The position numbers and the translations under genes are program-made. 49,499 nt of DNA. It comes from a candidate division KSB1 bacterium. GTDB taxonomy: Bacteria; Zhuqueibacterota; JdFR-76; DREG01. The stretch is from NCBI GenBank assembly GCA_022566355.1, contig JADFJB010000017.1, forward strand, positions 1 to 49,499, given 5' to 3'. Below the pieces are notes generated by a model. The model had not been told where the DNA came from, made no database searches, and was given only the letters and a program-made list of their open reading frames with translations. This document shows, piece after piece, positions 44,584-48,729 of the stretch; position 1 is the first letter of the stretch, and every line of letters starts with the position of its first letter.

Positions 44584-45966
44584 TTATATTTTCAAACTGA
44601 AGATTAAGCTTTTCCTGAAACTATTTATTTTAAGATGGTCGTTTTTGTATTCAGTTTTAGGCAGATCACGGCTGCTAGTATCATTCGGTAAAACCTTTTC
44701 GAATACAATTTTTCCATTTAAGTCATAAACCTGGAATTTAGTACTTTTAAAACTGTACAAAGTAATGATTAATTTATTCTGGCTAAGTGGTCTGTTTCAT
44801 AAATTCGGTGACGTATTTTTAAACGGAGCTATAAGCTGTAGTAATTTGTTTATCTCAATTACCCCTCCTAACCTTCCCTTATCAAGGGGAGGAATTTCCC
44901 CTCCTTGTTTAAGGAGGGGGTAGGGGAGGTTTAATAATATTGATAAGTACAATTTTAATACGTTACAGTAATTATGTTTTTATATACTAAGTAATATGTT
45001 TCTTGGCCTGTGAATCGTCCTTACATCTCCTTTTCCAACGTGGATGGGCCAATTCGGCATAATAACACCATTTTCATCATCAAATAAATAAATATAGCTT
45101 GATTTATCTCTTGCACTTTTATTGACCGATACAGCAGCCAAATACTTTCCATCCGCACTGTATGTAACCCGAAGGTCACCTTTAAATTCTGTAGGATACT
45201 CTCGCAATGGATTTCCATTACGGTCAAAAACATAGACTATACCCGCCCTTTCACCGATAGCCACTTTGTCGTTGCTAATTGCTAATTGTAAGGTACTGAG
45301 CATATTATTTTTCCGCCAGAGTTCTTTCCCTTGCGCATCTATTGCTATTAAGCCATTTTTGCTCCCAGAATAATCCTCAACCATACTATTTATTATTAAA
45401 AATCTTTTATCAGGTGATACATATGCATTTATCCCATGAACAGTGTAAGAATTGGAAAATGTATTAATAAGTTGACCCGATTTGCTATGAAGAGAAATTG
45501 GCTTATGAGAAGCTACCCTAAAAAAATAGCCCATTTCGGTTGGTATGAGGAAAAAATCTCTATCGTTGTTTTGTGAGAAAAGAAATTCGCCTTCATGATC
45601 ATAAACTCGTTTAATAAAGTTTGAACCATGCCTTGGCCTGTCCATCTCTCTTATGATCACATAATCCTTGGTGATTAGATTTACTGATTCAAGATCCTTT
45701 TTTAAATTTAGCTGGGTTCCATTGCTGAAAATAATTTTAGAGCCGGATGTTCTTTTTTCAAGAAAAGAAACTTTAGAAAACCCCAGCCGTTCGGCTTTGG
45801 CATTAAACTGTATAATTTGCTCAGGAGTTGTTTCTTCATTCACATCTAAACGTGCAATTTCCTGGAAAGACTTAGCGCTTTCCTGCTTTTGAAATCCCAG
45901 TACAACATTCAATTTTAAACTTAGCGCCATAAACAACATTACTGTCGAATTGACTTTCAAATTCAT
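44584..45966 (-). pseudogene. Beta-propeller-like secreted protein, copy 1, split by a MITE-like insertion
   Basis: The 5' part (ATG 45966) is a secreted propeller-like protein (signal region LMFTMALSLKLNVVLG-like, then EIARLDVNEETTPEQIIQF). It closely follows copy 2 to NWPIHVGKGDVRTIHRPR, then hits a stop at 44980. After a ~170-base palindromic insert, the same frame resumes at about 44790 as LSQNKLIITLYSFKSTKFQVYDLNGKIVFEK and ends at 44584, matching the C-terminus of copy 2 (ENKLIVTISNVLNRKYRVYDLTG). Insert length keeps the frame, but the insert itself contains stops. The product would lack the last ~65 residues. The repeats in the protein (AIGERAGIVYVFDRNGNPL, YSADGKYLAAVS) are WD40/PQQ-like blades. 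Confidence 0.8.
44802..44973. mobile_element. MITE-like palindromic element inside copy 1
   Basis: About 170 bases with imperfect inverted ends: aaattcggtgacgtatt at 44802-44818 and, read on the other strand, aattactgtaacgtatt from 44973. The core at about 44861-44930 is a long inverted repeat of cccctcctaaccttccctt / aaggagggggtaggggagg type, a motif common in intergenic elements of many bacteria. No coding capacity. Exact ends and any target-site duplication are not resolved by eye; ACTTAG occurs near both sides in the minus-strand reading. Confidence 0.7.
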
Positions 45967-45985
45967 GTTAGACTCATTTTATATT

Positions 45986-47170
45986 TCATTTTTTTAAATT
46001 AAAAATCCTACCTACACCAAGCTGATTTATAAACAGGTGATTGTTTTTATAGTCAATTTCAGTGACATTAGAATTGTCTAGATATCTTTTGCGAAATTTG
46101 GTTTCAAAAATAACTGACCCTGTTAGATCATAAACTCTATATTTTCTATTTAGAACATTCGATATGGTTACAATTAATTTGTTTTCTAAAATCGCAAGTC
46201 GGATTGGAGTGTAAGGATTGCTTGAATTTTCGTCATGGATATGGACAGGCCAGTTTTGTATCACAGTTCCTTGCTCATCATCAATTAGATATAAATAGCT
46301 AGACTTATCTTCTAAGCTTCTATTAGTCGATGCAGCTGCCAGGTATTTTCCATTTGAACTAAAAGTAACTGCCACATCCCCTTTAAATTTTGTCGGATAT
46401 TCTCTCAATTGATTTCCCTCACGATCAAAAACATAAACAATGCCACTTTCATGTCCTATTGCGACTTTTTTATTACTGATTGCCAATTGTCGCGTGCTTC
46501 GCAAATCGGGCTTTCGCCAGAGTTCTTTTCCAACTGAATTTATAGCAATTAATGCAGTTTGTTGACCAGAAAGATCATTAATTACGCTATTAATTATCAT
46601 ATAACTCTTGTCGGGTGAAGCATGAACCATTCGCCAATCGTTAATACTATAAGTGTTTGAAAAAGTATTGATGAGGCTGCCAAATTTATCGTAAAGAGTG
46701 ATTGGCTTACGGGAAGCCATCCTAAAAACGAAACCCAGTTCGGTTAGGACAAGACTAAAATTGCTATCATTTTGTTGAGAGAACAGGAACGTACCATTCC
46801 TGTCATATACCCTCTTGATAAATCTTGTTGGGTATTCAGGGCGATCGCGCTCGTTAACGATAACAAAATCTTTTGTTATCCTCGCGACTCTTTCGAGAGG
46901 CCAATTTAAATTTAACTGAACATCGTTACTGAAAATAATTTTGGAACTTGAAGCGTTTTTTTCAAAGTACGTGGGTTTGGCGAAGCCAAGTTCTTCGGCT
47001 TTGGCATTAAACTGCATGATTTGCTCAGGAGTTGTATTTTCATTCACATCTATGCGTGCAATTTCCTGGAAAGACTTAGCGCTTTCTTGGTTTTGAAAGC
47101 CGAATGCTACATGAAATTCAAGACACGCTATCATTAGAAAGATTAATGTCGAATTGACTTTCAAATTCAT
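45986..47170 (-). CDS. Beta-propeller-like secreted protein, copy 2 (intact)
   Basis: A 394-aa protein and the only intact member of the local family. Signal peptide (STLIFLMIACLEFHVAFGFQ), a short conserved helix segment (SAKSFQEIARIDVNENTTPEQIMQFNAKAE), then propeller-type repeats such as IGHESGIVYVFDREGNQL, VTFSSNGKYLAAAS and LYLIDDEQGTVIQNWPVHI. The last blade ends NVTEIDYKNNHLFINQLGVGRIF. It resembles WD40/PQQ-like proteins that act as binding platforms; no catalytic motif is visible. The first ~30 codons and the leader tgagtctaa before the ATG are almost identical to copy 1, so the duplication is recent. Function unknown. Confidence 0.78.
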   Translation of the reverse strand: MNLKVNSTLIFLMIACLEFHVAFGFQNQESAKSFQEIARIDVNENTTPEQIMQFNAKAEELGFAKPTYFEKNASSSKIIFSNDVQLNLNWPLERVARITKDFVIVNERDRPEYPTRFIKRVYDRNGTFLFSQQNDSNFSLVLTELGFVFRMASRKPITLYDKFGSLINTFSNTYSINDWRMVHASPDKSYMIINSVINDLSGQQTALIAINSVGKELWRKPDLRSTRQLAISNKKVAIGHESGIVYVFDREGNQLREYPTKFKGDVAVTFSSNGKYLAAASTNRSLEDKSSYLYLIDDEQGTVIQNWPVHIHDENSSNPYTPIRLAILENKLIVTISNVLNRKYRVYDLTGSVIFETKFRKRYLDNSNVTEIDYKNNHLFINQLGVGRIFNLKK

Positions 47171-47177
47171 ATTAGAC

Positions 47178-47291
47178 TCATTTCGTATTTATATTTTTTA
47201 GATGAAAAATACCACCTACACCAAGCTGATTAATAAACAGGTGATTGTTTTTGTAATCAATTTCAGTGACATTGTAATTATCAATTACATC
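47178..47291 (-). pseudogene. C-terminal stub of a further propeller copy
   Basis: This reads DVIDNYNVTEIDYKNNHL then FINQLGVGGIFHLKN and a stop. It matches the end of copy 2 (NVTEIDYKNNHLFINQLGVG) nearly residue for residue, and the DNA is also nearly identical. Nothing upstream continues the protein: similarity stops where the CCCGTAGGGA repeat cluster begins. It shows that at least four tandem copies once existed. Confidence 0.85.
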
Positions 47292-47296
47292 TTTCT

Positions 47297-47460
47297 ATCC
47301 CGTAGGGATCCAATATTTGTAGCAATTCTATTCTTTTAGTCCATTAAAGTCCCGTAGGAACGAGATATAAGATGGCAAGTGTTTTCTATTCCGTCCCTAC
47401 GGGACTTGCTATTTTTACTTGTTAGAATGGTTGCTATAAATATTTTATCCCTAATGGGAC
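47297..47460. repeat. Cluster of CCCGTAGGGA-type palindromes
   Basis: Four variants in ~165 bases: ATCCCGTAGGGAT (47297-47309), AGTCCCGTAGGAAC (47348-47361), CCGTCCCTACGGGAC (47391-47405) and ATCCCTAATGGGAC (47447-47460). Spacers share phrases such as tttgtagcaattct / gttgctataaatatt. A single related unit lies at 11157-11170. Irregular spacing and sequence divergence rule out a CRISPR array. The cluster abuts the broken end of the propeller stub. Confidence 0.75.
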
Positions 47461-47567
47461 TGTTAACTGAATTCTGTTAATTCTTTAAACTATCTGCTTC
47501 CTTTCAATTTTAACTATCAAGCCAAGAAACGATAGAAATACTTATACATTTTTGCGATGAACCATTA

Positions 47568-48729
47568 TTAATTCTTTTCTTTTATACTTTTGGGAAATTT
47601 ATACAACAGCCCATTACTAACGCCCAGAACTTGAAAAGAGACACCCTTGATGTATATATTCTCAACATTCACATGATCATATGAATTTATTGACATTGGA
47701 AGTTCCAAAAGCAGTTTCCCTGAAAAATTATATACTCTATAAATTCTAGTTGATATAAAATCAAAAGTTACACATACCAAATTGTTGATAATAGATATTT
47801 CCACTGGCGTCCCCTTCTTGCTTTTTCGGCTATCAAAGAAGATAGGCCAATTTTCCATCAATTTTACTTTAGCATCATCAAATAGATATACATAACTTTC
47901 TCTATATGGTCGTTCACTTGTTTTTAATGAGGTTGAAATTACTGCAAGGTATCTTCCATCCTCGCTAAATGTCACTGCCCCATATCCGGAAAAACTAACC
48001 GGATAGGATCTGAGTTCTTCACCTGAACGATTGAAAACAAAAACACTACTCCCCCACGGATTAATTGCCACTTTATCATTACTAATACCAAGTTGTCTTT
48101 GACTTCCTAATCCAGCAATGCGTCAAAGCTCATTTCCGTGTGCTCCAAAAGCAATTAGTGCACGATTTCTATTACGGTTATGACCATTTCTTGAAACAGC
48201 TTCTTTTACCCTTGCACTAATCACAAAAAAACTTCTATCAGGGGAGGTATCGACTTTACTAAAGTTATAGAGACCATGAGGACCGTCTCTAAAAATTTGC
48301 TTTATAAAAAGTCCCGCTTCGGTTGGATAAAGATATTTTGCTTTCGTTGAAAACAACTTTTCACCCTTTATATTATAGACTTGTTGTTCAATTAAAGTTG
48401 GGTAACGCGGATGGTTTGTATCTCGTATAACTATGTAATCTTGAGAAAATTTATGTACTCCTTGCAATTTGTTTTTTCAAAAACAATTCTTTACCATTAG
48501 CAAAAATTATCTTCTCACATTCTTCACTGCGCAGTAGAAATTGTCCTTTCGGAGCGCCAAGTTCGCCAGCCGGTTTGTTGAATTTTATAATATCTGCTGT
48601 GGTAGAATTTTGATCTACTTTCACAACAATGTATTCCTTGTGTGTTTGGAGGAGATTTTGTGCGAGACTGGGTCTTGGTATTAAAAAAAGAAATGATAGA
48701 ATTAAAAAAGATTTGATGTTTTTATTCAT
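47568..48729 (-). pseudogene. Beta-propeller-like secreted protein, copy 3, frameshifted and with TGG-to-TGA
   Basis: The ATG at 48729 starts a signal peptide (KSFLILSFLFLIPRPSLAQ) and the family N-terminus to KELFLKKQ. One extra base near 48468-48475 (A-rich run) then shifts the frame; dropping it gives LQGVHKFSQDYIVIRD, which aligns with LERVARITKDFVIVNE of copy 2. At 48123 an in-frame TGA replaces the conserved Trp of KELWRK (here NEL-stop-RIAGLGSQRQLGISNDK). The last third (47568-48071) is open and ends with the family C-terminus. About 20 residues are also missing near TEAGLFIKQ. It is more diverged than copies 1 and 2, so it decayed earlier or came from an older duplication. Confidence 0.82.

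Follow-up and report, generated by a model that had tools for sequence, protein, structure and literature searches.

The DNA under study is a stretch of 49,499 nucleotides (hereafter the window), contig C17 (JADFJB010000017.1) of the 4.62-Mb, 213-contig genome of a candidate division KSB1 bacterium (GCA_022566355.1), and the element in question is a cluster of four short CCCGTAGGGA-type palindromes at 47297–47460. The cluster lies among propeller-type genes that form a minus-strand array. The label "propeller" rests mainly on an earlier note made from the letters of the window; the two array proteins examined gave only weak Pfam matches below cut-off, one of them to a beta-propeller model. Between the gene at 45986–47170 and the propeller copy ending at 47568 stands a C-terminal stub of a propeller-type gene (47178–47291, minus strand), recognized from its reading frame and from its match to a paralogue. 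The stub comprises about 34 codons with a stop at 47178 and, compared with its 394-residue neighbour, lacks some 360 codons; its last 9 bp are uncertain. Positions 47160–47282 are 87% identical over 123 bp to 45956–46078, a segment holding the 3′ end of the next propeller gene, a spacer, and the start of the neighbour gene. The nucleotide match of the stub to its paralogue ends at 47282 and the first palindrome begins about 15 bp further on, confirming the observation of the earlier note that the four palindromes begin where the stub ends.

The palindromes form two inverted pairs around a centre of about 31 bp, and together they make up a 164-bp core (47297–47460, no strand assigned) that resembles a REPIN (REP doublet forming a hairpin; REP, repetitive extragenic palindromic). 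On the plus strand, palindrome R1 (ATCCCGTAGGGAT, 47297–47309), identified by sequence reading, a mismatch scan and a grammar scan, is followed by a tail that begins 3 nt past the hairpin (ATATTTGTAGCAA, 47313–47325), and R2 (GTCCCGTAGGAAC, 47349–47361) shows a single broken pair. On the minus strand, R2′ (GTCCCTACGGGAC, 47393–47405) is paired with R1′ (GTCCCATTAGGGAT, 47447–47460), the outermost pair of which is not standard, and the tail of R1′ (ATATTTATAGCAA, 47431–47443) was recognized by reading the sequence against the tail profile. The start-to-start distances are 52 bp for R1/R2 and 54 bp for R2′/R1′, with the two pairs facing each other. Stems measure about 5–7 bp and include GTCCC; as read from the sequence, the fourth palindrome (ATCCCTAATGGGAC, 47447–47460) is more degenerate than the other three. 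At one mismatch or less, CCCGTAGGGA matches the window five times, with three of the matches inside 47299–47403 (two exact, one mismatched), as compared to 0.98 expected from shuffling and five matches reached in 1 of 100 shuffles. The strict grammar (hairpin, 3 nt, ATRTTTRTAG) has one match in the window, R1, where 100 mononucleotide shuffles average 0.01. Inverted-repeat analysis revealed nested inverted repeats across the cluster, and the secondary-structure check proposed in the earlier note gave a clear outcome: the 201 nt around the palindromes fold at −70.5 kcal/mol as RNA (z −8.6, none of 200 shuffles as good) and with z −7.2 as DNA. The proposed genome-wide count gave a divided result. 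Exact TCCCGTAGGGA occurs four times in the genome, at only two loci (the window locus and contig C47), against none for the reversed control, whereas the motif with one mismatch is not enriched (31 matches versus 40 in the control) and the palindrome motif alone is therefore no genome-wide marker. The four palindromes are a single hairpin-folding structure, and chance palindromes are ruled out by the shuffle counts, the whole-genome exact count and the fold z-scores.

We consider it quite probable that the four palindromes together make up one gene-less REPIN-like element of the Y1/HuH transposase class. It would consist of two inverted REP pairs, the outer REP of each combining a short hairpin with ATRTTTRTAG 3 nt further on. 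The unit recurs beyond its own genome: a search with window positions 47285–47570 matched 14 of 99 genomes at E ≤ 0.001 (own genome included), and 7 of the 64 good-quality genomes. Among matches in other genomes, 21 of 34 end at window positions 47459–47461, i.e. at the outer palindrome edge. A Y1 transposase open reading frame (ORF) has palindromes on both sides in two genomes: pairs flank the G007 ORF of about 154 residues on either side, and the G040 ORF is preceded by a palindrome and followed by a pair. The G040 protein matches Pfam Y1_Tnp at E 7.6e-27 and solved transposases such as 2xm3 at E 1.6e-6; in NCBIfam it scores 62 bits with the IS200/IS605 model (cut-off 55) and 27.1 bits with the model for REP-associated tyrosine transposases (RAYTs; cut-off 80). 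The strict DNA pattern was found in 23 stretches of a GTDB-wide set, from records named Cloacimonadota, Saprospirales, Bacteroidales, Ignavibacteria, Chlorobiota, Acidobacteriota, an FCB bacterium, Larkinella, Desulfobacterales and Desulfonema magnum. No stretch in the viral contigs carried it, and a phage origin was rejected on this ground. In Desulfonema magnum (L144, L146, L150 and L155) GTCCC..GGGAC units build long tandem arrays, mostly with a period of 49–53 bp. These arrays repeat the whole 52-bp unit, "spacer" included, almost unchanged. A CRISPR reading was discarded in view of this near-invariant "spacer", no search for cas genes being made, and the arrays look like tandem repeats.

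The association with the transposase gene was quantified in a phylum sample of 82 genomes searched with the G040 protein, 38 of which match at E ≤ 1e-20; 30 loci were fetched. Genomes with the gene hold one to four such matches each, and 23 of the 30 loci show the HuH and Y...Q..HH signature by strict pattern. Palindromes with arms of at least 6 nt occur in 26 of 55 flanks at 0–150 nt from the gene versus 6 of 47 at 1050–1200 nt, the counts dropping stepwise with distance to 4–6 of 47 beyond 750 nt. An arm common to the upstream and downstream flank is present at 19 of 28 loci (two of the 30 were set aside because their flanks were short; L170 and L171, which have one gene in common, were both counted), as compared to 5.4 ± 2.0 in mismatched pairings, with a maximum of 12 in 1000. 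We later added 29 loci from 11 genomes reached through REP-bearing loci, a biased sample, and dropped the duplicate L171. In the enlarged set, a TCCC..GGGA palindrome within 250 nt of the gene accompanies 7 of 7 genes with at least 70% identity to G040, 11 of 19 at 50–70%, and 6 of 32 below 50%, the highest class being partly selected in that it includes the query G040 as well as G007 and G064, both found through the repeat. The same counts without the added genomes are 4 of 4, 8 of 12 and 1 of 13, and at 750–1000 nt from the gene they fall to 1 of 7, 0 of 19 and 0 of 32 (1 of 58 overall). Genome G049 (75% identity) carries the palindromes despite giving no match in the 99-genome search with the window repeat. 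Conversely, 7 of the 11 REP-bearing genomes encode a transposase of at least 50% identity.

The palindromes and their tails follow a common grammar. The tail is present in 77 of 88 palindrome pairs spaced 46–58 bp apart, a set that includes loci chosen by pattern. When occurrences were instead gated on ATRTTTRTAG and pattern loci excluded, a perfect 5-bp stem ended exactly 3 nt upstream in 80 of 107 cases, with 1, 0 and 3 at shifted control positions; this set still includes loci selected for resembling the window, as well as two that overlap pattern loci. The subset with the least bias, namely the 30 loci of the phylum sample retrieved by protein, gave 28 perfect 5-bp stems in 38 occurrences (controls 0, 0 and 1). 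Seven stem sequences contribute to it (GTCCC 9, ATCCC 5, ACTCC 4, ACGCC 4, GCCCC 3, AACCC 2, ACCCC 1), and paired, compensatory changes occur at several stem positions. Within 300 nt of the gene, the full grammar was found at 17 of 26 loci of the clade with at least 50% identity versus 2 of 26 at 700–1000 nt, and 35 of 46 gene-flanking REPs carry their tail towards the gene. Transposase genes below 50% identity carry other palindromes. GCCCC..GGGGC, CCCACG..CGTGGG and TGAGCCC..GGGCTCA accompany the subclass 1.2-like genes L229, L234, L180, L184, L187 and L189. This suggests that the repeat type differs per transposase lineage.

In the own genome, a DNA search returned copies on C47 (89% over 189 bp) and C195 (84% over 175 bp), partial copies on C69, C25, C53, C18 and C16, and weaker matches besides. 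Some copies have sequence beyond the palindromes in common, extending to a terminal repeat GGTTCATC...GATGAACC. The window retains 47292–47563 (minus strand) of such an element, here called family A, with 85% identity to the C47 copy over 47292–47551. One end resembling a terminal inverted repeat (TIR) is preserved at 47563 (GATGAACC on the plus strand), and the opposite end is lost. Adjoining the preserved end, a possible 8-bp target site (ATTATTAA, 47564–47571, no strand assigned) overlaps the stop codon of the minus-strand propeller copy ending at 47568; as a target site it is unproven, the partner duplicate having been lost along with the missing end. The TIR consensus has 25 matches in the own genome at up to three mismatches (reversed control 0), the diverged window end not being among them. 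Three elements have both ends recognized and all of them show perfect 8-bp duplications (TTATTTAT, ATAATTGT and ATATTTAA). Miniature inverted-repeat transposable elements (MITEs) with the TIR GGWTCATCATAATAATGCGTA and 8-bp duplications lie at L193 987–1521, L200 1501–1932 and L202 1501–1765, and members enclose differing palindromes, e.g. CCTCTACGAGG and AACCGCTAAAGCGGTT. The window copy probably sits inside a decayed MITE-like element. The MITE's own transposase was not found; an ISL3-type enzyme as partner of the 8-bp-duplication MITE was rejected upon 0 matches to PF01610 in the own genome.

On these data, the window copy may be described as the inverted REP pairs found around a Y1 gene, minus the gene. 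An IS200-like transposase of the subclass 1.2 type would recognize hairpin and tail on single-stranded DNA, and it could cut and rejoin the repeats, spreading REPs in trans. The REP unit would here reside inside a MITE-like element whose terminal repeats differ. This element may have landed beside the stop codon of one propeller gene. Subsequently its far end, along with some 360 codons of the adjoining propeller gene, would have been removed by a deletion (or by recombination between two repeats of this kind) that reached as far as the outer palindrome, so that only the stub remained. No matching transposase turned up in the own genome, and the window copy is thus probably a fossil; the local deletion was probably a single decay event at the margin of an element already dead.

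The earlier note had gone further in proposing that the repeats drive deletion, and accordingly the hairpins might be deletion hotspots that generally erode neighbour genes through replication slippage or cruciform cutting. Break points of several copies speak for such a role. The window copy breaks about 5 bp outside the outer palindrome R1 and the C195 copy about 4–5 bp outside R1′, which is the mirror-image point; C69 shows an internal loss from one palindrome to another, and in the related family B the copies on C54 and C104 stop at 16 and 9 bp, respectively, from the outer palindrome. The stub break and the repeat edge are physically joined, given these mirror positions in window and C195. 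On the other hand, C25, C32 and C179 break away from palindromes, the copies are few (C53, C18 and C16 were left out of the mapping and the sample is small), and by a rough estimate about one third of the element is close to a palindrome anyway. The association of the unit with deletion endpoints, suggested as a check in the earlier note, is seen at the window and C195 junctions. Of the other family-A copies examined, 7 of 7 overlap no ORF of at least 70 residues, and among six family-B copies two overlap an ORF (75 and 117 residues). This crude test, which is blind to old pseudogenes, gave no excess near broken genes for the 7 family-A and 6 family-B copies. Break points near palindromes could equally be the edges of the palindrome or mobile unit. 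It is possible that the repeat drove the deletion that left the stub; as a general property of the hairpins, however, erosion of neighbour genes appears doubtful.

A second alternative holds that the palindromes are merely the interior of a DDE-type MITE with terminal repeats GGWTCATCATAATAATGCGTA and 8-bp duplications, the Y1 transposase being irrelevant to the window copy. The 25 TIR matches, the duplications in all three two-ended elements and the single such end kept at 47563 are in line with this idea, as is genome G005 of the same order, where a TIR-like end lies about 380 bp from a REP pair (L128). Still, the palindrome-pair unit is also present in other phyla and flanks a Y1 gene elsewhere, in relatives most matches to the window (21 of 34) reach no further than the edge of the outer palindrome, and the MITE family encloses differing palindromes, as though REPs had entered the MITE. 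This interior reading is unlikely in our assessment. A control element of RNA or DNA (terminator or mRNA stabilizer) kept for host function would account for the strong fold and the intergenic position, but it is highly improbable, as the copies are few, degenerate and truncated and the presence of the TCCC stem tracks transposase similarity; moreover, the window has no Rfam match at gathering score, and a known RNA family was rejected on that basis. An assembly error at a repeat, conceivable for a 213-contig assembly in which matches of another repeat start or end at contig ends, is hardly credible, as the other family-A copies are at most 89% identical at any length, too different for easy mis-joining, and the stub side matches its paralogue right up to the break.

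Several observations weigh against the preferred reading of a gene-less REPIN-like element served by a Y1/HuH transposase. Two of the 11 REP-bearing genomes have no match to the transposase at E ≤ 1e-10 and two others offer only 33–35% matches, one of them with stops. The closest genes of Desulfonema magnum (56%) carry GCCCC rather than GTCCC hairpins, while GTCCC palindromes are near two of its more distant genes (40–43%). Within 300 nt, the strict grammar is missing at 9 of 26 genes of the clade with at least 50% identity, was found at only 8 of 16 genes in genomes not chosen for the repeat, and was found at 0 of 32 genes below 50%, and 11 of the 46 gene-flanking REPs point the opposite way. 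Furthermore, the outer MITE ends with their 8-bp duplications imply that another transposase moved the larger element. In the own genome, no gene of the clade with at least 50% identity was found; the copy on C72 is 35% identical with two in-frame stops, the fragment on C12 reaches 42% over 91 residues without the N-terminal part, and both stand beside other palindromes. The own Y1 genes on C72, C12, C135 and C34 were dismissed as partners upon finding their flanks free of TCCC..GGGA pairs by eye (C72 and C12 also by scan). In the family-mate G001, a fragment of 23 residues, 96% identical to the G040 protein, is placed at the edge of a contig, and this piece of the contig also bears four palindromes of the TCCC..GGGA kind; this is no more than a hint that a transposase partner was lost. 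As a separate observation, the C72 gene (L005 1486–1932) is subclass 1.2-like, its two stops are TAA, the palindromes AACCGTTTCAACGGTT and CCCACGAATTTATTCGTGGG stand either side of it, and its neighbours on both sides look by eye like RND efflux pumps.

Beyond the window, we lean towards the view that subclass 1.2 of the Y1 transposases constitutes a separate, widespread REP-spreading system, characterized by a hairpin, 3 nt and ATRTTTRTAG as a 3′ tag, by inverted pairs with about 50-bp spacing around the gene, by lineage-specific stems, and by gene-less pairs acting as REPINs. The grammar stands beside the gene in genomes recorded as Bacteroidales, Chlorobiota, Ignavibacteria, Acidobacteriota, Larkinella and Desulfonema magnum. 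In genome evolution, REPs and their maintaining transposases have long been a puzzle, one best worked out in Proteobacteria. TnpA_Y1 subclass 1.2 is defined by the Y...Q..HH signature together with HuH and, in the excerpted text of Quentin et al. (2018; PMC6006769), described as generally without IS200-type end structures; a table row of the same article, excerpted without its column head, shows "no" in the place at which hairpin or REP types are given for other rows. The transposases found here agree with subclass 1.2, as excerpted, in the signature and in their few matches per genome but differ in that palindromes flank most close relatives of G040. A link between subclass 1.2 and REP-like repeats looks new, as none was found in the open-licence PMC literature among the matches listed; among the literature matches listed for CCCGTAGGG inside words, none looked related by title. 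A transposase class described as generally lacking end structures would turn out to be flanked by palindromes in a recognizable grammar, which offers a recognition code that is simple and can be tested, along with a set of naturally varying stems with which to study DNA choice by these enzymes.

The likeness to the REP/REPIN system with RAYT (TnpA_REP) lies in short, intergenic palindromes that form inverted pairs in multiple copies (a handful in the own genome), flank a Y1/HuH transposase gene (in relatives, not in the own genome), and differ between transposase lineages. Unlike RAYT REPs, which carry GT[AG]G at the 5′ foot, the repeats described here have the tag ATRTTTRTAG 3 nt after the hairpin. 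The transposase is closer to IS200 and, as judged from NCBIfam scores and the Y...Q..HH signature without a tree, falls outside RAYT class 2. Elements of the IS200/IS605 type (subclass 1.1, IS608, ISDra2) belong to the same catalytic superfamily and have subterminal hairpins, near which their cleavage site lies. They differ in that the window copy and the other unit copies of the own genome are gene-less, with hairpins paired on each side. Sibling elements with terminal inverted repeats and target duplications are reminiscent of MITEs, whereas the window copy has one end only and REP pairs inside. CGTC-tagged REPs, reported from Chlorobi and Bacteroidetes among others, have stems of 8–9 bp, an unpaired CGTC tag, a CCA-like tail and no dedicated transposase according to the excerpts of PMC3733652. 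The window unit is unlike these, its GTCCC being part of a stem of about 5–7 bp and not an unpaired tag. Another abundant repeat, a TGTCATCCCGTCG...CGGG stretch at L010 ~1770–1860 (C47:3510–3600), matches the own genome more than 30 times and, judged by eye, is similar to CGTC-tagged REPs.

A second broken gene of the array had been included in the earlier note, which saw another palindromic element at the break of propeller copy 1. This proved correct: the ORF of copy 1 (44980–45966) is interrupted by a repeat of about 199 bp at 44788–44986 (no strand assigned), bordered by CTAAG direct repeats at 44783–44787 and 44987–44991. They represent a 5-bp target duplication (CTAAG on the plus strand, CTTAG on the gene strand), and when the gene is read across the empty site, its frame stays open and continues into the C-terminal part that was missing. 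The repeat has 40 scored matches in the own genome among 61 candidates, several of which start or end at contig ends. Five further copies were located out of six tried, all ending at CTTAG or CTAAG. The break in copy 1 is a clean insertion by a repeat family unrelated to the CCCGTAGGGA element. The suggestion that small repeats at both broken ends drive insertion or deletion in the array consequently holds in part: both breaks coincide with palindromic repeats and copy 1 was opened by a repeat insertion with target duplication, but the repeats belong to two unrelated families and a general role in deletion is not supported. A third propeller copy (47568–48600) is also broken: its frame is interrupted by a stop near 48121 and by others upstream of it.
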